From Chitinophagaceae bacterium (GTDB taxonomy: Bacteria; Bacteroidota; Bacteroidia; Chitinophagales; Chitinophagaceae): 53,082 nt of DNA. The notes under the pieces were generated by a model. That model made no database searches. It worked only from the letters and a program-made list of their open reading frames with translations, and was not told where the DNA came from. Below are positions 12,760 to 22,873 of this stretch, piece by piece; position 1 is the first letter of the stretch, and each line of letters opens with the position of its first letter. Made by a program: the position numbers and the translations under genes. The stretch lies in contig JADZFY010000221.1 in the NCBI GenBank assembly GCA_020854215.1, positions 1 to 53,082 of the forward strand, written 5' to 3'.

Positions 12760-12796
12760 GCGAACGGAGTTTTTTATATGGCAAGCAATCGTTGAG

Positions 12797-12827
12797 GCCA
12801 CTCCAGAAAATGGGGTGGCATTTTTTT
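12797..12827 (+). terminator. Intrinsic terminator of the small lipoprotein gene
   Basis: GCCACTCC / GGGGTGGC stem (one G-U) followed by T-tract. Confidence 0.8.
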
Positions 12828-12869: not shown

Positions 12870-12877
12870 TACATTTG
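12870..12877 (+). promoter_or_regulatory. Candidate Bacteroidota -7 element (TAnnTTTG) for the aromatic operon
   Basis: TACATTTG exact match to TAnnTTTG; 7 nt between it and the leader ORF ATG. No strong -33 element seen. Confidence 0.5.
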
Positions 12878-12884
12878 CAACGCA

Positions 12885-12971
12885 ATGAATCAAACAAGAG
12901 CATACGGTTTCTTTTATTTTTATTTCTACTTTACCGGTAGAGCGGGATTGCTTTTGTTGAAAACAAATTAA
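12885..12971 (+). CDS. Phe/Tyr-rich attenuator leader peptide (28 aa)
   Basis: MNQTRAYGFFYFYFYFTGRAGLLLLKTN stop; 9 aromatic residues, 8 consecutive; directly upstream of a terminator and pheA. Below the ORF-track length cutoff. Confidence 0.85.
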   Translation: MNQTRAYGFFYFYFYFTGRAGLLLLKTN

Positions 12972-13021
12972 ATCAAAAAAACTCAGCATAAACAGTCCCG
13001 GCTTAAAACCGGGATTTTTTT
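12943..13021 (+). promoter_or_regulatory. Transcription attenuator: mutually exclusive antiterminator and terminator
   Basis: Antiterminator: CGGGATTG (12943-12950) pairs with CAGTCCCG (12993-13000), 8 bp with one G-U. Terminator: TCCCGG (12996-13001) pairs with CCGGGA (13009-13014), then T7. Confidence 0.8.
12996..13021 (+). terminator. Intrinsic terminator of the pheA leader (attenuator)
   Basis: TCCCGG-CTTAAAA-CCGGGA-TTTTTTT, 24 nt after the leader peptide stop. Confidence 0.85.
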
Positions 13022-13055
13022 GTGGCTTTTCGAATCCAGATTAAACTATTTAATT

Positions 13056-13985
13056 ATGAGTGATCCTAAAACGGCTGACGAAGCAAAAGAAGTAACAGAT
13101 CCGGTTACAAGCTCTCCGATCAGGAGCAACGGCCACCCATCTGAGGTTGAATCGGCAGCAGTTGTTGCCATCCAGGGATATGAAGGCAGCTTTCACCAGG
13201 TAGCTGCGCAGCATTTTTTTGGCAGAAAGACAAATGTAATTTGCTGTGCCACGTTTGGAGATGTTGTAAAAAATACATTAAACAAGAAAGGCAGCGATGG
13301 TGGCGTAATGGCAATTGAGAATTCTATTGCCGGTAGCATTTTGCAAAACTACAACCTGTTGCAGAAAAGCCGCCTTAAGGTTGTAGGCGAAATATATCTG
13401 CAAATCCGTCAAAACCTCCTGGTAAATCCGGGTATTCAATTGTCGGATATTAAAGAAGTGCATTCCCACCCAATGGCCATTCAACAATGCCTCGACTATC
13501 TTGATCAATTCAATTGGAAGCTCGTTGAAACAGAGGACACGGCTTTAAGCGCAAAACATATTCACCAACACAAAAGCAAACACGTAGCCGCTATTGCCAG
13601 CACTTTGGCAGCCGAATTGTATAATTTGGACGTGTTGGCACCCGACATTCATACATTAACGAACAACTACACCCGATTTTTGATCCTGCAGCACGAGGAC
13701 CTGGCTGAAATCATTGAACACGCCGACAAAGCTTCGGTTAGTTTTCATACCGATCATTCAAAAGGAAGTTTAGCCAGAGTACTAACCACGATAGCGGAAG
13801 GTGGGATTAATCTGAGCAAACTGCAAAGCTCTCCTATCCCGGGATCCGATTTCAGATATTCTTTTCACGCTGATATGGAGTTTGATTCGCTGCAGCAGTT
13901 TTATCAGGTAATTAAGGAAGTGAAAGGCCTTACCGAAGACGTTAAGATTTACGGCGTGTATCGAAAAGGCAAACACTACACATAG
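13056..13985 (+). CDS. pheA: Prephenate dehydratase with ACT domain
   Basis: IQGYEGSFHQVAA, MAIENSIAGSI, HSHPMAIQQC, NNYTRFLIL; ATG at 13056 (MSDPKTADEAKE) preferred to the track's upstream TTG at 13020. Confidence 0.9.
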   Translation: MSDPKTADEAKEVTDPVTSSPIRSNGHPSEVESAAVVAIQGYEGSFHQVAAQHFFGRKTNVICCATFGDVVKNTLNKKGSDGGVMAIENSIAGSILQNYNLLQKSRLKVVGEIYLQIRQNLLVNPGIQLSDIKEVHSHPMAIQQCLDYLDQFNWKLVETEDTALSAKHIHQHKSKHVAAIASTLAAELYNLDVLAPDIHTLTNNYTRFLILQHEDLAEIIEHADKASVSFHTDHSKGSLARVLTTIAEGGINLSKLQSSPIPGSDFRYSFHADMEFDSLQQFYQVIKEVKGLTEDVKIYGVYRKGKHYT

Positions 13986-14028: not shown

Positions 14029-15213
14029 ATGACCACGACGGCAAAACGATTAGAAGGCATTGGTGAATATTATTTCTCGCAAAAACTCAGGGAGATAGAC
14101 GAACTGAACCGGCAGGGCAGGCAGATCATTAGTCTGGGTATTGGTAGCCCCGATATGCCTCCCCACCCCGATGTAATAAAAACATTGCAGGAAGAGAGTG
14201 CTAAACCCAATGTTCACGCGTATCAAAGTTATAAAGGGTCTCCTGTTTTGCGTCGTGCAATTGCGGAATGGTATAAAACCTCGTACAACGTTACTTTGCA
14301 GGCCGACACGGAGATACTTCCTCTTATCGGGAGCAAAGAAGGTATAATGCACGTTTGCATGACCTATATCAACCCGGGTGACGATGTATATGTGCCCAAC
14401 CCCGGCTATCCCACCTACAGAAGCGCCGCGAAGTTAGCGGGAGCCAACATTGTAGAATATGAGCTGGAACAAAAAAACAACTGGTTGCCCAATCTGGAAG
14501 CGCTTAAGATGCAAATCAATAGCGGTTCGAAACAGCAAACCACCCGTTTACTCTTTATCAACTATCCGCATATGCCTACCGGGCAGGTACCCGCAAAATC
14601 ATTTTTTGAATCATTGGTGGCATTTGCAAAAAAGAACAACGTGCTTATCGTACATGACAATCCGTACAGTTTTATCCTTAACGATCGTCCCATGAGCATC
14701 TTGGAAGTGGACGATGCAAAATCAGTTGCAATAGAACTGAATTCCTTAAGCAAATCCCACAACATGGCCGGATGGCGCGTGGGAATGCTCTGCGGCGATA
14801 AACAACGGATTGATGAAGTGTTGCGTTTTAAAAGCAATATGGACAGTGGAATGTTTCTTCCGGTACAACTTGCTGCCGCAAAGGCCTTAACGCTCGGAAA
14901 TGATTGGTACGAAAGCATCAATACCACGTATGCTGCACGGCGGATGAAAGTTTTTGAATTGCTGCAATTGCTTAATTGTTCATTCGCTTCCGAACAGGCT
15001 GGCATGTTTGTGTGGGCTAAAGTACCTGAATCGTATAAAGACGGATATGCATTGAGTGATGAACTGCTGTATAACGCCGGAGTATTTATTACACCAGGCG
15101 GCATATTTGGAAGCGCAGGTAATCAATATGTGAGAGTGAGCCTCTGCTGCACCACACAAAATATTCAGGAAAGTATAGAACGGATAAAAGTATCATTGAA
15201 AGGAAATCAATAA
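14029..15213 (+). CDS. PLP-dependent class I/II aminotransferase (probably aromatic amino acid)
   Basis: ISLGIGSPDMPPHPDV, NPGYPTY, INYPHMPTG, SLSKSHNMAGWRVG. Confidence 0.85.
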   Translation: MTTTAKRLEGIGEYYFSQKLREIDELNRQGRQIISLGIGSPDMPPHPDVIKTLQEESAKPNVHAYQSYKGSPVLRRAIAEWYKTSYNVTLQADTEILPLIGSKEGIMHVCMTYINPGDDVYVPNPGYPTYRSAAKLAGANIVEYELEQKNNWLPNLEALKMQINSGSKQQTTRLLFINYPHMPTGQVPAKSFFESLVAFAKKNNVLIVHDNPYSFILNDRPMSILEVDDAKSVAIELNSLSKSHNMAGWRVGMLCGDKQRIDEVLRFKSNMDSGMFLPVQLAAAKALTLGNDWYESINTTYAARRMKVFELLQLLNCSFASEQAGMFVWAKVPESYKDGYALSDELLYNAGVFITPGGIFGSAGNQYVRVSLCCTTQNIQESIERIKVSLKGNQ

Positions 15214-15216
15214 AAA

Positions 15217-16065
15217 ATGTTCAACACAATTACTATTGTAGGAGTAGGCTTGATAAGTGGCTCGTTTAGCCTCATTCTTAAAGAACGCGGATGGGTGAAA
15301 CATGTGATTGGAGTGAGCCGAACCGAACAAAGTATCAAAAAAGCACTGGAATTGGGCCTCATTGATGAGGCACTTCCGCTGGAAGAAGCAGTAAAAAAAA
15401 GTGATCTTATTTATGTAGCCATTCCGGTTGACGCCACCATACCTGTGATGCAGAAAATTTTGGATTGCGTAAATGAAAAGCAAATTGTGGTGGATGCAGG
15501 TTCTACCAAGCAGGTGCTTTGCGACGCCCTCGCTAATCATCCTATGCGGAGGCGATTTGTAGCCACCCACCCTATGTGGGGAACGGAATACAGCGGTCCG
15601 GAAGCCGCGGTGAGCAATGCATTTGCCGGACGCGTTTGTGTGGTTTGTGAAAAGGAGAAAAGTGATTCGGATGCGGTGGAGACAGTAGAGGGCGTTTATA
15701 AGCAACTGGGAATGCATGTAACCTATATGGATGCCGATGCTCATGATATTCATGCCGCCTATGTAAGCCATATTTCTCATATCACTTCCTTTGCCCTGGC
15801 CAATACCGTTTTAGAAAAAGAAAAAGAAGAAAACGCCATTTTCGAACTGGCAGGTGGTGGTTTTGAAAGTACCGTGCGCCTTGCTAAAAGCAGCCCCGCG
15901 ATGTGGCTTCCTATTTTTCAACAAAATCGCGAACACGTACTGGATGTACTCAATGAGCATATCACGCAGTTAAGAAAATTTAAGAGTTGTCTCGAAAAAG
16001 AAAATTACACCTACCTGCAGGAACTCATGGAAAATGCCAACAAAATAAACAGGATTATCAAATAG
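15217..16065 (+). CDS. tyrA: Prephenate dehydrogenase
   Basis: TIVGVGLISGSFSLILKERGW, VVDAGSTKQ, THPMWGTEYSGPEAA, HDIHAAYVSHISH. Confidence 0.88.
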   Translation: MFNTITIVGVGLISGSFSLILKERGWVKHVIGVSRTEQSIKKALELGLIDEALPLEEAVKKSDLIYVAIPVDATIPVMQKILDCVNEKQIVVDAGSTKQVLCDALANHPMRRRFVATHPMWGTEYSGPEAAVSNAFAGRVCVVCEKEKSDSDAVETVEGVYKQLGMHVTYMDADAHDIHAAYVSHISHITSFALANTVLEKEKEENAIFELAGGGFESTVRLAKSSPAMWLPIFQQNREHVLDVLNEHITQLRKFKSCLEKENYTYLQELMENANKINRIIK

Positions 16066-16133: not shown

Positions 16134-17813
16134 ATGATGACATTTGAAGCGTTGGGTTTAGAAGGCAGATTGGTAAAGGCTACTGATTCTTTAGGATTTA
16201 CACAAGCAACCCCTATACAGGAAAAAGCGATTCCCGTTTTACTGAGCGGCACTACAGATTTGGTGGGACTCGCACAAACAGGAACCGGAAAAACGGCGGC
16301 CTTTGGCCTGCCTTTGTTACAACTTATTGACGCTAAGGAGAAATATCCGCGGGCATTGATTGTATGCCCTACCCGCGAATTGTGTTTGCAAATAGTAAAT
16401 GAGCTAACAACTTTTAAGCAATTCATCCCCGGCATGCATGTAACTGCCGTTTACGGTGGCACTTCTATTGGAGCACAAATCAGGGAACTTCGAACCGGGG
16501 TGCAAATTGTGGTGGCTACACCCGGACGACTGATAGATTTGATTGAACGCAAAGCAATCAACCTGGAGCAAATTAAATACGTGGTACTGGATGAAGCAGA
16601 TGAAATGCTGAATATGGGATTTCAGGATGATATTGAATTTATTTTAAAAAACACCCCTAACCGCGAAAGCACCTGGCTGTTCAGTGCCACTATGCCTCCT
16701 GAAATACGCAGAGTAAGCAAAAAATACATGAAGACTCCTGTAGAAATTACAGTGGGTAAAGTAAACACTGCGAATAAAAATATAGATCACCAGTATTACG
16801 TAACGACCGCTCAGCAACGCTACGACGCATTAAAGCGGTTGATAGATTTTAATCCGGGCATCTACGGAATCATTTTTACCCGTACTAAAGCAGACGCCCA
16901 GGCGATTGCTGAAAAACTTACCCGGGAGGGTTACGACATTGATGCATTGCACGGCGACCTCACCCAACAGCAGAGAGATAAAGTAATGGGCGCATTTAGA
17001 GATAAATCGCTTCAGCTTTTAATTGCCACAGATGTTGCCGCAAGAGGAATTGACGTACAGGGTATCACACACGTTATTAACTACGAGCTGCCTGACGACG
17101 TGGAAGTATATACCCACCGAAGCGGACGTACCGGCCGAGCCGGAAATACAGGTATCTGCATGTCGGTTATCCATAGCCGTGAAATTGGAAAAATCCGGCA
17201 GATTGAAAGAATGGTGCAAGTGCCCTTTCATAAGTTGGAAATTCCCGCAGGTAAAGATGTGTGCCGCAAACAGTTTTATCATTTTATGGATAATCTGTTG
17301 CAACTCGATATTGATGACAAGAGTTACGAACCCTATATTCCAATGATGGATGAAAAATTCGCCAACATTACAAAGGAAGAGATATTAAAGCGGCTGGCAG
17401 CACATGAATTTCAGCGCTTTTTAAAATATTACGAGAACGCCGAAGATCTTAATGTAAGGGAAAGAGTGCGGGAACAACGGGACAGAACGCCCAGAAGCTT
17501 TGGCGACAAACGCGATATGGGTCGCAAAAAAGACGTCAAAGGAAGAGAATTCACCAGGAACGGAAACGGAGACTATACCCGCCTTTTTGTAAACCTCGGT
17601 ACCAAAGATGGTTTTTACAAAGCCAGTTTCCTGCAGTTTATTTTAGACATGAGCGATTTAAGAAAAGAAACACTGGGAAGAATAGATATGAAGGAAATGA
17701 ACAGTTGGATTGAGGTTGACAAAAGATCAGCGGGACAAATGATCCGGTCTATTGACGGGAAAAAATTTAAGGGAAGAAGCCTTCGGATGAACGAAGCGGA
17801 TCAACGGAGATAA
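16134..17813 (+). CDS. DEAD-box RNA helicase with DbpA-like C-terminal RNA-binding domain
   Basis: AQTGTGKTAAF, PTRELCLQI, VLDEADEML, SATMP, HRSGRTGRAG; C-terminal YTRLFVNLGTKDGFYKASFLQFI. Confidence 0.9.
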   Translation: MMTFEALGLEGRLVKATDSLGFTQATPIQEKAIPVLLSGTTDLVGLAQTGTGKTAAFGLPLLQLIDAKEKYPRALIVCPTRELCLQIVNELTTFKQFIPGMHVTAVYGGTSIGAQIRELRTGVQIVVATPGRLIDLIERKAINLEQIKYVVLDEADEMLNMGFQDDIEFILKNTPNRESTWLFSATMPPEIRRVSKKYMKTPVEITVGKVNTANKNIDHQYYVTTAQQRYDALKRLIDFNPGIYGIIFTRTKADAQAIAEKLTREGYDIDALHGDLTQQQRDKVMGAFRDKSLQLLIATDVAARGIDVQGITHVINYELPDDVEVYTHRSGRTGRAGNTGICMSVIHSREIGKIRQIERMVQVPFHKLEIPAGKDVCRKQFYHFMDNLLQLDIDDKSYEPYIPMMDEKFANITKEEILKRLAAHEFQRFLKYYENAEDLNVRERVREQRDRTPRSFGDKRDMGRKKDVKGREFTRNGNGDYTRLFVNLGTKDGFYKASFLQFILDMSDLRKETLGRIDMKEMNSWIEVDKRSAGQMIRSIDGKKFKGRSLRMNEADQRR

Positions 17814-17870: not shown

Positions 17871-18959
17871 ATGCAAGCGGTTGAAACCATTACGAAAGCA
17901 GCAGTGCTGGAAAAGTTAAATAAAAAACCTTTAATCATTTCTGGTCCCTGTAGCGCAGAGACCGAGGCACAGGTACTCGATACAGCCCAGCGTTTGGCAA
18001 ACACAGGCAAAGTAGATATGCTCCGTGCGGGTATATGGAAGCCCCGTACCCGTCCGGGAAGTTTTGAAGGGATTGGCACTAAAGGTTTACCCTGGCTGCA
18101 ACAGGCAAAAAAAATCACCGGATTGCCCACTACTGTGGAAGTAGCTACGGGCAAACAAGCCGAGGACGCCCTGCATTTTGAAGTGGATATGTTATGGATA
18201 GGTGCACGTACAACGGTTAATCCGTTCAGTGTTCAGGAAGTAGCAGATGCGTTGCGTGGCGCCGATGTTCCCGTATTTATAAAAAATCCGATTAACCCGG
18301 ACCTGGAATTGTGGACCGGCGCTGTTGAACGTATTGCTAAAGCGGGCATTAAAACCATTGGGTTAATTCATCGCGGTTTTAGCTCTTACGGAAATACAGA
18401 ATATCGCAATGCGCCGATGTGGCACTTAGCAATTGAAATGAAAAGACGTAATCCGGAGCTGAAAATCATCAACGACCCATCTCACATTTGTGGAAGGAGA
18501 GACATACTTCTGGAAGTTGCTCAAAAAGCGATTGACCTCGACTTTGACGGGCTGATGATTGAAAGCCATGTTGATCCTGATAACGCATGGAGTGATGCCA
18601 AACAACAGGTTACTCCTGAAAAACTGGCTGAAATGCTCAACTCCATAGCCTGGAGAAATGAAGACGCCGACTCGAAAGAATTTCACGCCGCACTGGAAAA
18701 ACTTCGGCAGCAAATTAACCATCTGGATGATGAGTTGATGCAGATACTCAGCCAGCGCATGAACCTTGCCGAAAAAATTGGTCAGTATAAGAAGGATAAT
18801 AATATTACGATTTTGCAAACTTCCAGGTGGAATGAAATTCTTGAAAGAGCAATGCGCAAGGGAGAAAAAATCGGACTGAGCAGTGAGTTTATTACCAAAT
18901 ATTTTGATGCGGTACATATGGAGTCCATCAATCATCAGAATAAAATAATGAACTCCTGA
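17871..18959 (+). CDS. Bifunctional 3-deoxy-7-phosphoheptulonate synthase / chorismate mutase
   Basis: IISGPCSAETEAQ, MLRAGIWKPRTRPGSFEG, DPSHICGRRD; C-terminal AroQ-type LRQQINHLDDELMQILSQRMNLAEKIGQYK. Confidence 0.9.
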   Translation: MQAVETITKAAVLEKLNKKPLIISGPCSAETEAQVLDTAQRLANTGKVDMLRAGIWKPRTRPGSFEGIGTKGLPWLQQAKKITGLPTTVEVATGKQAEDALHFEVDMLWIGARTTVNPFSVQEVADALRGADVPVFIKNPINPDLELWTGAVERIAKAGIKTIGLIHRGFSSYGNTEYRNAPMWHLAIEMKRRNPELKIINDPSHICGRRDILLEVAQKAIDLDFDGLMIESHVDPDNAWSDAKQQVTPEKLAEMLNSIAWRNEDADSKEFHAALEKLRQQINHLDDELMQILSQRMNLAEKIGQYKKDNNITILQTSRWNEILERAMRKGEKIGLSSEFITKYFDAVHMESINHQNKIMNS

Positions 18960-18986: not shown

Positions 18987-19421
18987 ATGCAAGGCAGTAA
19001 TAATACTTTTTTGTACGTTCATGCCATTTGGAGTACATCCGGCAGAATGCCGGTACTTTCGCCTGTTGTAAGAAAGGTTTTATTTGCGTTCATGGACAAA
19101 ATTCCGGAAACAAAAGGTATCCAGGTAATGGCCGCCAATGGGGCAGATGACCATATTCATTGCCTTTTTAAACTTATGCCGGTTCAATCGGTTGCCGAAA
19201 TTGTCCGGCAGTTAAAATTCGATACGCAGGACTGGCTGAACAGCAACAAATTTTTAGCTGACCCATTTGAGTGGAGCGACAGTTATTCTGCCTGGTCTGT
19301 AAGTCCATCCACCATTGACAAGGCAATTGAATATATCTGCAAACAGGAGTGTTACCATCGGGAGAAAACACTCACGGAAGAACTGGATGCGTTTAACAAA
19401 ATGGTTGTGCATTTGAGCTAA
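18987..19421 (+). CDS. IS200/IS605-family Y1 transposase-like protein (TnpA)
   Basis: DDHIHCLF (HUH), EWSDSYSAWSVSPSTIDKAIEYICKQECYHREKT (Y1 motif); 144 aa, short C-terminus. Confidence 0.85.
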   Translation: MQGSNNTFLYVHAIWSTSGRMPVLSPVVRKVLFAFMDKIPETKGIQVMAANGADDHIHCLFKLMPVQSVAEIVRQLKFDTQDWLNSNKFLADPFEWSDSYSAWSVSPSTIDKAIEYICKQECYHREKTLTEELDAFNKMVVHLS

Positions 19422-19458: not shown

Positions 19459-20478
19459 ATGAGTTCGACACGGTATAAATTCAATAACAGTCTCACGCAG
19501 TTCTATTTTGACAGCAGTTTTTCTCAACTCAGAAAAATTGCGGACGCCAAATCGGCGGTACTGATTACAGATGAAAACGTTTTCAGTAATCACACCAAAA
19601 AGTTCAGGAACTGGAATACCATTGTGCTGAAACCGGGTGAGGAATTTAAAGTGCAGGCTACAGTGGATTCGATCATTGAGCAACTGATTGGAATGGCCGC
19701 CGACAGAAAAACCACTTTGGTTGGGATTGGAGGAGGAGTAGTTACGGATATCACCGGATACGCTGCTGCTACATATATGCGCGGAATTCCGTTTGGATTT
19801 GTTCCCACATCCGTATTGGGATTGGTGGATGCAAGCATTGGAGGAAAGAATGGTATTGACGTAGGCGTATATAAGAATATGGTTGGCACAATACGCCAGC
19901 CTGCTTTTCTTTTGCACGACTACAGTTTATTGCAGTCTCTTCCCGAAAATGAATGGCAGAATGGCTTTGCGGAGATCATCAAGCACGCCTGTATTAAAGA
20001 CGCCCCGATGTTCAAAGAACTGGAAGCGAATTCACTGAAAACGTACCGGCAAAAGAAAAGTGCCATGCGTTCATTATTCCGGCGCAATGCACTGATCAAA
20101 ATCAGGGTGGTTCAAAAAGATGAATTTGAAAAAGGAGACAGAAGACTGCTCAACTTCGGGCACACCCTGGGGCACGCGTTGGAAAATCAATATGACCTTT
20201 CGCATGGCCAGGCCATTGCAATCGGTATGACCTACGCCTGCCATATTTCTTCCCGGTTAAAGCGTTTTAAGGATACGGCGAGGGTGGTAAAATTATTGGA
20301 ACAATATGGATTACCTACTTATGCTGATTTTGATACAGGGAAAGTGTTAGATGTGCTCAAAATGGACAAAAAGAGAGAACGCAGGGAAATCAATTATGTA
20401 TTGTTGGAAAAAACAGGTAAGGCAGTGATTGAAGCACTACCGCTCCGGCAATTGGAACAATTAATAGAAGCATTGTAG
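19459..20478 (+). CDS. aroB: 3-dehydroquinate synthase
   Basis: GIGGGVVTDITGYAAATYMRGIPFGFVPTSVLGLVDASIGGKNGID; FGHTLGHALE. Confidence 0.92.
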   Translation: MSSTRYKFNNSLTQFYFDSSFSQLRKIADAKSAVLITDENVFSNHTKKFRNWNTIVLKPGEEFKVQATVDSIIEQLIGMAADRKTTLVGIGGGVVTDITGYAAATYMRGIPFGFVPTSVLGLVDASIGGKNGIDVGVYKNMVGTIRQPAFLLHDYSLLQSLPENEWQNGFAEIIKHACIKDAPMFKELEANSLKTYRQKKSAMRSLFRRNALIKIRVVQKDEFEKGDRRLLNFGHTLGHALENQYDLSHGQAIAIGMTYACHISSRLKRFKDTARVVKLLEQYGLPTYADFDTGKVLDVLKMDKKRERREINYVLLEKTGKAVIEALPLRQLEQLIEAL

Positions 20479-20480
20479 TT

Positions 20481-21779
20481 ATGATAGCCATCATTAAGCC
20501 ATCGGAACTGACCCATATTATTCAGGCGCCTGCTTCCAAAAGTGCCATGCAAAGGGCCTGTGCGGCCGCATTGATTGCCAGGGGAAAAAGTGTGATATGC
20601 AACCCGGGACATTCGAACGACGATAAGGCGGCCCTCGCAGTAATCGAGGCGTTGGGTACAAGATTGAGCACTAACGCCGACGGTGCGATAGTTGCAGACA
20701 GCAGCGAAGTAAATTTATCGTCTCCGGGCGACAATCAAAACCCGCTGTCCGTTAATTGCGGCGAAAGCGGACTGGGTATTCGGATGTTTGCTCCGGTAAT
20801 CGCGTTAAGCAGACACCCCATTACCATTACGGGGGAAGGAAGTTTGGTATCTCGTCCGATGGATTTTTTTGACGATACTCTCCCGCACTTAAACGTAACC
20901 GTTAGTTCAAATTCGGGCAAGTTGCCTTTAACACTCTCCGGACCGCTGCAACCCAGAAATATAGAGGTTGACGGTTCCCTGAGTTCTCAATTTTTGACCG
21001 GCTTATTAATGGCATACGCCGCAGCGGGAGCCCGGGACGTTACCATAAAGGTTAACAATTTAAGAAGCAGACCTTACATTGATCTTACCCTTAAGGTGAT
21101 GCAACATTTTGGATTGAAAACACCGGAAAACAAAAATTACAAAGCATTTTATTTTGACCAGTCGCAGGTGAACCCTCCAATGTCCGAAACGCAATACACC
21201 GTAGAAGGAGACTGGAGCGGCGGAGCGTTTTTACTCGTTGCAGGCGCCATCGCCGGTACGATTGAAGTACGCGGTCTTGATCCTGAATCTACGCAGGCAG
21301 ATAAGAAAATAATGGAAGCGCTTTCAGATGCCGGTGCAGGCATTGAATACGGCAGCAACGGATACCTCATTTCACCTGCCGAATTAAAAGCGTTCACTTT
21401 TGATGCAACAGATTGCCCGGATCTCTTTCCACCGTTAGTTGCACTTGCCGCTTATTGCCAGGGTACAACCGAAATCAAAGGGGTTAGTCGTTTAACCCAT
21501 AAAGAAAGTAACCGTGGTTTAACGCTACAGCAGGAATTTGGCAAAATGGGGTTACAGATTACGTTGCAGGATGATATCATGCAAGTATTTGGTGGTAACG
21601 GATTAACAGGAACAACCGTACATTCAAGGCATGATCATCGAATCGCAATGGCCTGTGCCGTAGCAGCACTCCGGGCACAAGGCGAAACACACATAGAAGA
21701 AGCCGAAGCCATCAATAAATCTTACCCCGATTTTTATAATGACCTTTTGAAATTGGGTGCGGCTGTAAAAATAAAATGA
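20481..21779 (+). CDS. aroA: 3-phosphoshikimate 1-carboxyvinyltransferase (EPSP synthase)
   Basis: APASKSAMQRACAAAL, CGESGLGIRMFAPV, VDGSLSSQFLTGLLMA, HDHRIAMACAVAAL. Confidence 0.92.
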   Translation: MIAIIKPSELTHIIQAPASKSAMQRACAAALIARGKSVICNPGHSNDDKAALAVIEALGTRLSTNADGAIVADSSEVNLSSPGDNQNPLSVNCGESGLGIRMFAPVIALSRHPITITGEGSLVSRPMDFFDDTLPHLNVTVSSNSGKLPLTLSGPLQPRNIEVDGSLSSQFLTGLLMAYAAAGARDVTIKVNNLRSRPYIDLTLKVMQHFGLKTPENKNYKAFYFDQSQVNPPMSETQYTVEGDWSGGAFLLVAGAIAGTIEVRGLDPESTQADKKIMEALSDAGAGIEYGSNGYLISPAELKAFTFDATDCPDLFPPLVALAAYCQGTTEIKGVSRLTHKESNRGLTLQQEFGKMGLQITLQDDIMQVFGGNGLTGTTVHSRHDHRIAMACAVAALRAQGETHIEEAEAINKSYPDFYNDLLKLGAAVKIK

Positions 21780-21829
21780 GCAAGGTCAGATTATCTGTAA
21801 CTAATCATTAGCTTTAAGAAAACGCTGAT

Positions 21830-22873
21830 ATGAATTCATTTGGGAGATTTTTTCGCGTGCATATATTTGGAGAGTCGCATGGTGAGAGCGTGGGCATTTG
21901 TATAGACGGATGTCCTGCCGGTTTGTCGTTGAAGGTGGACGATTTCTTAACCGATATCGAGCGAAGAAAAGGCGGTAAACAAAAAGGCACTACGCCCAGG
22001 CAGGAATCGGATCTTCCGATTTTTAAGAGTGGTATATTTAACGATACCACAACGGGAGCACCCCTCACCATACTTTTTGAAAATAACAATACGCGTTCTG
22101 GCGACTACCAGAAGCAACGAGCCGTACCTCGTCCCGGACATGCCGATTTTGTAGCCCATCAAAAATTTGGCGGTTTTGAAGACTACAGGGGTGGCGGCCA
22201 TTTCAGTGGACGCCTTACCGTGGCGCTGGTTGCAGCCGGCGTTATTGCCAAAAAGCTCCTGCAACAGGTTTCAGAAAAAGTCGGAATTCACAATTCAAAT
22301 GATGCGGTGCGGCAGGAAATTTCCGTTGTTTCCCACCTTGTGGAAATAGGCGGTGAAAAGGATATAGAAAAAGGACTGCAGCGGGCCATTGATGCCAAAG
22401 ATAGCATTGGTGGTATTGTAGAATGCCGCGTTAACGGACTTCCCTGGGGATTGGGTGAACCTTTTTTTGATTCCGTGGAATCGGTAATAAGTCACGCTGT
22501 ATTTTCAATCCCTGCCATACGCGGAATTGAATTTGGAACCGGGTTTGCAGCCGCCCGGATGTTTGGTACCGAGCACAATGACGCCATCATAGACGCCAGT
22601 GGAAAAACCCGCACCAATCATGCAGGCGGTGTTGTAGGCGGAATAAGCAACGGCAATGAGTTGGTATTTCGAATTGCAGTTAAACCTACTTCGTCCACAC
22701 CTAAAGAGCAGGAAACATTAAACTGGGAAACGGGAGTGGTTGAAACATTTTCCGTAAAAGGACGTCATGACCTTTGTATTGCTTTAAGGGTTCCGGTTGT
22801 GCTGGAAGCTGTTACGGCAATCGTTTTAGCCGACCTGATGTTAATCACCCAGAATATGCCGAGGATATCCTAA
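21830..22873 (+). CDS. aroC: Chorismate synthase
   Basis: FRVHIFGESHGESVGICIDGCPAG, RPGHADFVAHQKFGGFEDYRGGGHFSGR, RTNHAGGVVGGISNG. Confidence 0.92.
   Translation: MNSFGRFFRVHIFGESHGESVGICIDGCPAGLSLKVDDFLTDIERRKGGKQKGTTPRQESDLPIFKSGIFNDTTTGAPLTILFENNNTRSGDYQKQRAVPRPGHADFVAHQKFGGFEDYRGGGHFSGRLTVALVAAGVIAKKLLQQVSEKVGIHNSNDAVRQEISVVSHLVEIGGEKDIEKGLQRAIDAKDSIGGIVECRVNGLPWGLGEPFFDSVESVISHAVFSIPAIRGIEFGTGFAAARMFGTEHNDAIIDASGKTRTNHAGGVVGGISNGNELVFRIAVKPTSSTPKEQETLNWETGVVETFSVKGRHDLCIALRVPVVLEAVTAIVLADLMLITQNMPRIS

Follow-up and report, generated by a model that had tools for sequence, protein, structure and literature searches.

A conserved Phe/Tyr-rich leader peptide and a predicted transcription attenuator upstream of pheA in Chitinophagaceae and other families of Bacteroidota

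Transcription attenuation is textbook biology that comes from Proteobacteria. Among the described systems, pheL (Rfam RF01859, Phe_leader) combines, like the locus examined here, a leader ORF containing Phe codons, a terminator in front of pheA and a competing antiterminator. To our knowledge, Bacteroidota lack Shine-Dalgarno initiation and use a different promoter code. In this phylum, the Bacteroid-trp motif is linked to trp genes. That motif (RF01692), likewise a candidate cis-regulatory RNA of Bacteroidetes but of a different operon, was listed by Weinberg et al. 2010 (PMC2864571). In Flavobacterium psychrophilum, a structured 5' transcribed element that other genera of Flavobacteriaceae also conserve was described upstream of pheA, and the same study reported strong indications that leader peptides attenuate amino-acid operons (PMC9723704, 2021, main text). 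Regulation of this kind can therefore be considered already known, and the pheA element had been glimpsed, although we found neither leader codons nor an antiterminator or a mechanism for pheA in the main text of that paper, nor any claim beyond Flavobacteriaceae. In the openly accessible literature, this paper and the Bacteroid-trp motif were the only accounts bearing on attenuation in Bacteroidetes that we found, and we came across no description of the leader's reach across the class, of a run joining Phe and Tyr, of an antiterminator within the ORF or of its spacing.

We investigated the region upstream of pheA in a 53,082-nucleotide stretch of DNA from a Chitinophagaceae bacterium (contig JADZFY010000221.1; the whole analysed stretch is referred to as the window), for which an initial annotation had proposed leader-peptide attenuation. 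Conservation, compensatory changes, spacing relative to the ribosome edge and the interchangeability of Phe and Tyr all support this reading. Judging from the sequence comparisons, the locus is very likely a real attenuator, and we are highly confident that it acts as a ribosome-mediated transcription attenuator that would sense charged tRNA-Phe and tRNA-Tyr together and control a pheA-aminotransferase-tyrA operon, with shikimate genes behind. The features upstream of pheA are the following.

12797..12826, + strand: terminator of the preceding small gene (stem 12797-12819, then a T-run)
12870..12877, + strand: predicted -7 promoter box TACATTTG (TAnnTTTG), Bacteroidota type
12885..12971, + strand: leader peptide ORF MNQTRAYGFFYFYFYFTGRAGLLLLKTN, 28 codons (ATG 12885, TAA 12969-12971)
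12909..12932, + strand: putative regulatory codons, eight consecutive Phe/Tyr (FFYFYFYF)
12943..12950, + strand: antiterminator helix P1a, 5' strand CGGGATTG, within the ORF
12952..12960, + strand: antiterminator helix P1b, 5' strand, within the ORF
12983..12991, + strand: antiterminator helix P1b, 3' strand
12993..13000, + strand: antiterminator helix P1a, 3' strand CAGTCCCG, common to the terminator 5' arm
12994..13021, + strand: intrinsic terminator hairpin and T7 tract (stem 12994-13016)

Re-reading the sequence confirmed both the 28-codon ORF and its eight consecutive Phe/Tyr codons. With 9 aromatics per 10 residues, this ORF has no equal among 3000 dinucleotide shuffles of the 300 bases 5' of pheA, only one of which contained an ORF with 8; the initial observation holds and lies well outside chance expectation. 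Elsewhere in the same genome, runs of at least seven Phe/Tyr codons occur at three sites, approximately the control rate, none of which is leader-like, and His-run patterns yielded 50 scattered matches. Between the leader ORF and the first gene lies the intrinsic terminator, with TCCCGG at 12996, followed by CCGGGA and a T7 tract ending at 13021. As the initial annotation had stated, it precedes pheA at 13056, and the alternative stem formed by 12943-12950 and 12993-13000 pairs correctly (with one G-U in CGGGATTG/CAGTCCCG) and uses the terminator 5' arm, making the two folds mutually exclusive. Within the ORF tail, CCGGGA pairs with TCCCGG, the terminator 5' arm, and the partner of TTTTGTTGA is TCAACATAA, farther upstream of the arm. 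The P1b helix (12952-12960/12983-12991), the -7 box and the terminator of the preceding gene had previously been missed. The parts themselves can be read from the aligned sequences, as can their conservation, their spacing and the compensatory changes in their pairing.

Downstream of the terminator, the window contains the genes of the putative operon.

13056..13985, + strand: pheA, prephenate dehydratase (PDT; weak ACT domain; PF00800, E 1.7e-56)
14029..15213, + strand: class I/II aminotransferase (PF00155)
15217..16065, + strand: tyrA, prephenate dehydrogenase (PF02153/PF20463)
16134-17813: DbpA-type DEAD-box helicase, between tyrA and the DAHP synthase gene
17871..18959, + strand: DAHP synthase-chorismate mutase fusion (PF00793/PF01817)
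18987-19421: Y1 (IS200-like) transposase ORF, between the DAHP synthase gene and aroB
19459..22873, + strand: aroB, aroA, aroC, co-directional

The order pheA-aminotransferase-tyrA was found in all 71 long loci tested, and the co-directional aroB, aroA and aroC probably belong to the operon as well. The nearest named pheA is that of Agriterribacter humi. A helicase match follows tyrA in 29 of the 71 long relatives, and in 29 others the DAHP synthase gene comes directly after tyrA; the transposase ORF at 18987-19421 is of the kind known from REP-associated transposases.

Of 80 Chitinophagaceae sequences, 79 carry an aromatic micro-ORF (at least 6 aromatics per 10 residues) 5' of pheA, as do 52 of 89 further pheA-upstream regions from across the phylum, compared with ~1% in shuffled sequence and 1/89 in far-upstream stretches. 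The initial annotation had suggested comparing pheA-upstream regions of Chitinophagaceae, and this comparison revealed both the conserved Phe/Tyr ORF and stems with compensatory changes. Within the same class, the leader-bearing families are f1, f2, f3, f5, f8 (3 of 6), f9, f40, f44, f51 and f66, joined by f67, f70, f76 and f86; no leader was seen upstream of pheA in the sampled members of f50, f84, f59, f56, f4, f60 and f92, and f41 and f53 were placed in neither group. In other classes, 16 families were without the leader in the sampled regions, and four (f15, f18, f27, f33) each included a genome carrying a Bacteroidia-like pheA and a similar leader (L086 in G156, L090 in G014, L159 in G066 and L160 in G133), reflecting either horizontal transfer or assembly contamination. 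At three loci from a single genus of f8 (L121-L123), aroA directly precedes pheA with no leader in between, which suggests that the attenuator has been lost or relocated in this genus. Tandem pairs of aromatic micro-ORFs were observed upstream of pheA at L088 and L089 (f9), L092 (f2) and L155 (f70), each micro-ORF having its own terminator and antiterminator at the first three of these loci; such tandem leaders apparently arose in several lineages.

Across 75 distinct Chitinophagaceae peptides, the last seven codons of the run are nearly all Phe or Tyr, mixed within columns, with Ser as the main exception, and a search inside the run of the Chitinophagaceae leaders for the single-base change from Phe to Leu found no TTA or TTG codon. 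By this pattern of substitution, the run is selected to encode 'Phe or Tyr', as suits an operon making both amino acids from prephenate; the leader is a short ORF rich in codons for the operon's own products. The free exchange of the two residues within the run supports the earlier suggestion that one attenuator senses both. Among the 80 Chitinophagaceae leaders, 12 contain Trp, as do 19 of the 57 leaders from elsewhere, but because it makes up a small minority of the aromatic codons, its role as a third sensed amino acid is possible but unproven.

For the RNA arms, we counted 25 double-change cells in P1b within Chitinophagaceae; none of 500 shuffles gave more than 12, and slid registers never exceeded 7. 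The terminator had 6, against at most 2; P1a alone hardly varies and contributes little. When P1b was placed on the pheA tree, the best pair showed only ~5 changes per side, and the sign test had too few pairs, so that few independent changes underlie the covariation within Chitinophagaceae. The comparison between families provides the stronger evidence. In other families, the arms read GGATTGT/ACAATCC, GCGGGA/TCCCGC or GAGACTTT/AAAGTCTC, changed in sequence with complementarity kept, and compensatory change has thus preserved an antiterminator that occupies the terminator 5' arm and excludes the terminator. Pairing of the ORF tail with the terminator 5' arm beat shuffled tails in 55 of 57 leaders outside Chitinophagaceae, where the arms also preferred their own partners (mean -21.2 kcal/mol) to foreign ones (-13.0 kcal/mol), the own partner ranking in the top 10% for 46 of 56.

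CGGG lies 10 nt past the end of the last aromatic codon in 71 of 80 leaders, and this spacing stays at 9-13 nt in the whole set even though the intervening codons vary. Under a footprint borrowed from E. coli, the front edge of a ribosome holding the last aromatic codon in the A site ends where the antiterminator begins. Folding the RNA ahead of the ribosome for each ribosome position, we found the modelled antiterminator to dominate at 100% of 75 Chitinophagaceae loci for ribosome positions up to the one that places the last aromatic codon in the A site, and at 3% one codon later, a switch that persists when the front edge is set from +14 to +16; in other families, the modelled switch falls within two to three codons. 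In the window, the antiterminator drops from 1.00 through 0.24 to 0.00 at codons 16, 17 and 18. Spacing and the folding model together support the claim that a ribosome stalled on the Phe/Tyr codons would leave 12943-12950 free, these codons being positioned, in silico, such that a stalled ribosome frees the antiterminator. The companion claim that a ribosome at the stop covers the same segment did not hold up: by footprint, with the stop codon in the A site, ~12953-12981 would be covered. In the model, such a ribosome would instead block by separating the arms and covering P1b, and, since when parked at the stop it would not cover P1a, we assume that the OFF state depends on timing or steric separation.

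Because the preceding gene is closed by a terminator of its own (12797-12826), the leader has a separate transcription unit. An exact TAnnTTTG box accompanies 69 of 80 Chitinophagaceae leaders, 65 of 80 having it 4-10 nt 5' of the ATG compared with 0.8% in shuffles; in families other than Chitinophagaceae, the box is mostly farther from the leader ATG. In F. psychrophilum, the box spans -12 to -5 (PMC9723704, main text), which leads to a predicted 5' UTR of 0-6 nt for Chitinophagaceae and, in the window, to a predicted transcription start at ~12882 and a 5' UTR of ~3 nt. The same text puts leaderless mRNAs at only 5.5% in F. psychrophilum (PMC9723704). Upstream, at 12775-12826, the window contains a block, TATGGCAAGCAATCGTTGAGGCC, with a GC hairpin and a T-run behind it. 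The core of this block recurs in 33 of 80 Chitinophagaceae loci, mostly upstream of pheA, another contig (C73) of the same genome carries a second copy that has a terminator of its own, and a search against Rfam returned no match for it.

In the mechanism we infer, covering actual termination, stalling, coupling, the start site and the direction of the response, transcription is predicted to begin almost at the leader start codon. When Phe or Tyr is scarce, the ribosome would stall within the aromatic run and leave 12943-12960 free to pair with 12983-13000, which would take away the terminator 5' arm and allow RNA polymerase to continue into pheA. When both amino acids are plentiful, the ribosome would pass the last Phe codon (12930) and cover or separate the antiterminator strands, and the terminator at 12994-13021 would form. 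Leader translation would thus be the off switch, the antiterminator being the default without translation.

This predicted default without translation is what separates the proposed mechanism from a full four-arm attenuator of the trpL/pheL type, in which an untranslated leader terminates and a protector hairpin sequesters the antiterminator arm. Some close relatives do carry CCGG-TAGA-CCGG directly before the arm, and the best Rfam match of the leader, at 12892-13023, is the Phe_leader model, which reaches 27.1 bits (E 0.011), half the gathering score of 55 bits. However, our search for a protector (1:2) hairpin upstream of the arm in relatives found no conserved pairing partner, the corresponding segments reading AAGAAGCCGGG, AAGAGGCCGGG and others, and the window leader folded without a ribosome adopts the antiterminator at 0.92-0.98. 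We consider the four-arm design improbable. Of the enterobacterial pheL/trpL geometry proposed in the initial annotation, the leader ORF, terminator and competing antiterminator were borne out, whereas the conserved protector hairpin is missing and the untranslated RNA is predicted to be antiterminated. Given the lack of a conserved protector and the formation of the antiterminator without a ribosome, leader translation is predicted to switch the operon off.

Two further explanations would deny the ribosome this role. The ORF could encode a small functional peptide, acting in the membrane or in signalling, with the terminator being incidental; the conserved Phe/Tyr residues and the tail GRPGLLLLK, recurrent in Chitinophagaceae, are compatible with this possibility, but the tail is kept as nucleotides, CCGGGANTGCTTTTGTTRA, in different frames (PGMLLLK, RECFC*, PGVFC*), as explained by its being the antiterminator 5' strand. 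Moreover, peptides of different families have only the aromatic run in common, and each comes with its own matching antiterminator and terminator, leaving a functional peptide very unlikely. A T-box, a riboswitch or a protein-binding attenuator, with the ORF as a by-product, would share the terminator/antiterminator pair, which is common to all these devices. Yet no Rfam family reaches the gathering score at the leader, with neither the T-box nor RF01692 Bacteroid-trp matched in the window, and the amino-acid-level constraint on the run, along with the fixed codon-to-helix spacing, implies that a translating ribosome is required; we give this explanation the smallest chance of all.

Looking beyond the window, we lean towards an ancient attenuator, distributed over 14 or more families of the class, which would treat 'Phe or Tyr' as one signal, employ three RNA arms, stand on by default and be turned off by translation, with a nearly leaderless mRNA in Chitinophagaceae and tandem doubling in at least three lineages. 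Such a leader is predicted to be a long-conserved, major control of aromatic amino acid synthesis in Bacteroidota. Its codon-to-helix spacing offers a comparative ruler for the Bacteroidota ribosome edge, and leaders of this type could serve as ready-made Phe/Tyr sensors for Bacteroidota genetics.

The default-on, three-arm design yields a clear prediction that sets this leader apart from trpL. Compared with pheL, the leader described here mixes Phe and Tyr codons and is devoid of a conserved protector hairpin, its antiterminator arm lies inside the ORF behind a predicted 5' UTR of ~3 nt, and the operon it precedes also carries tyrA and shikimate genes.
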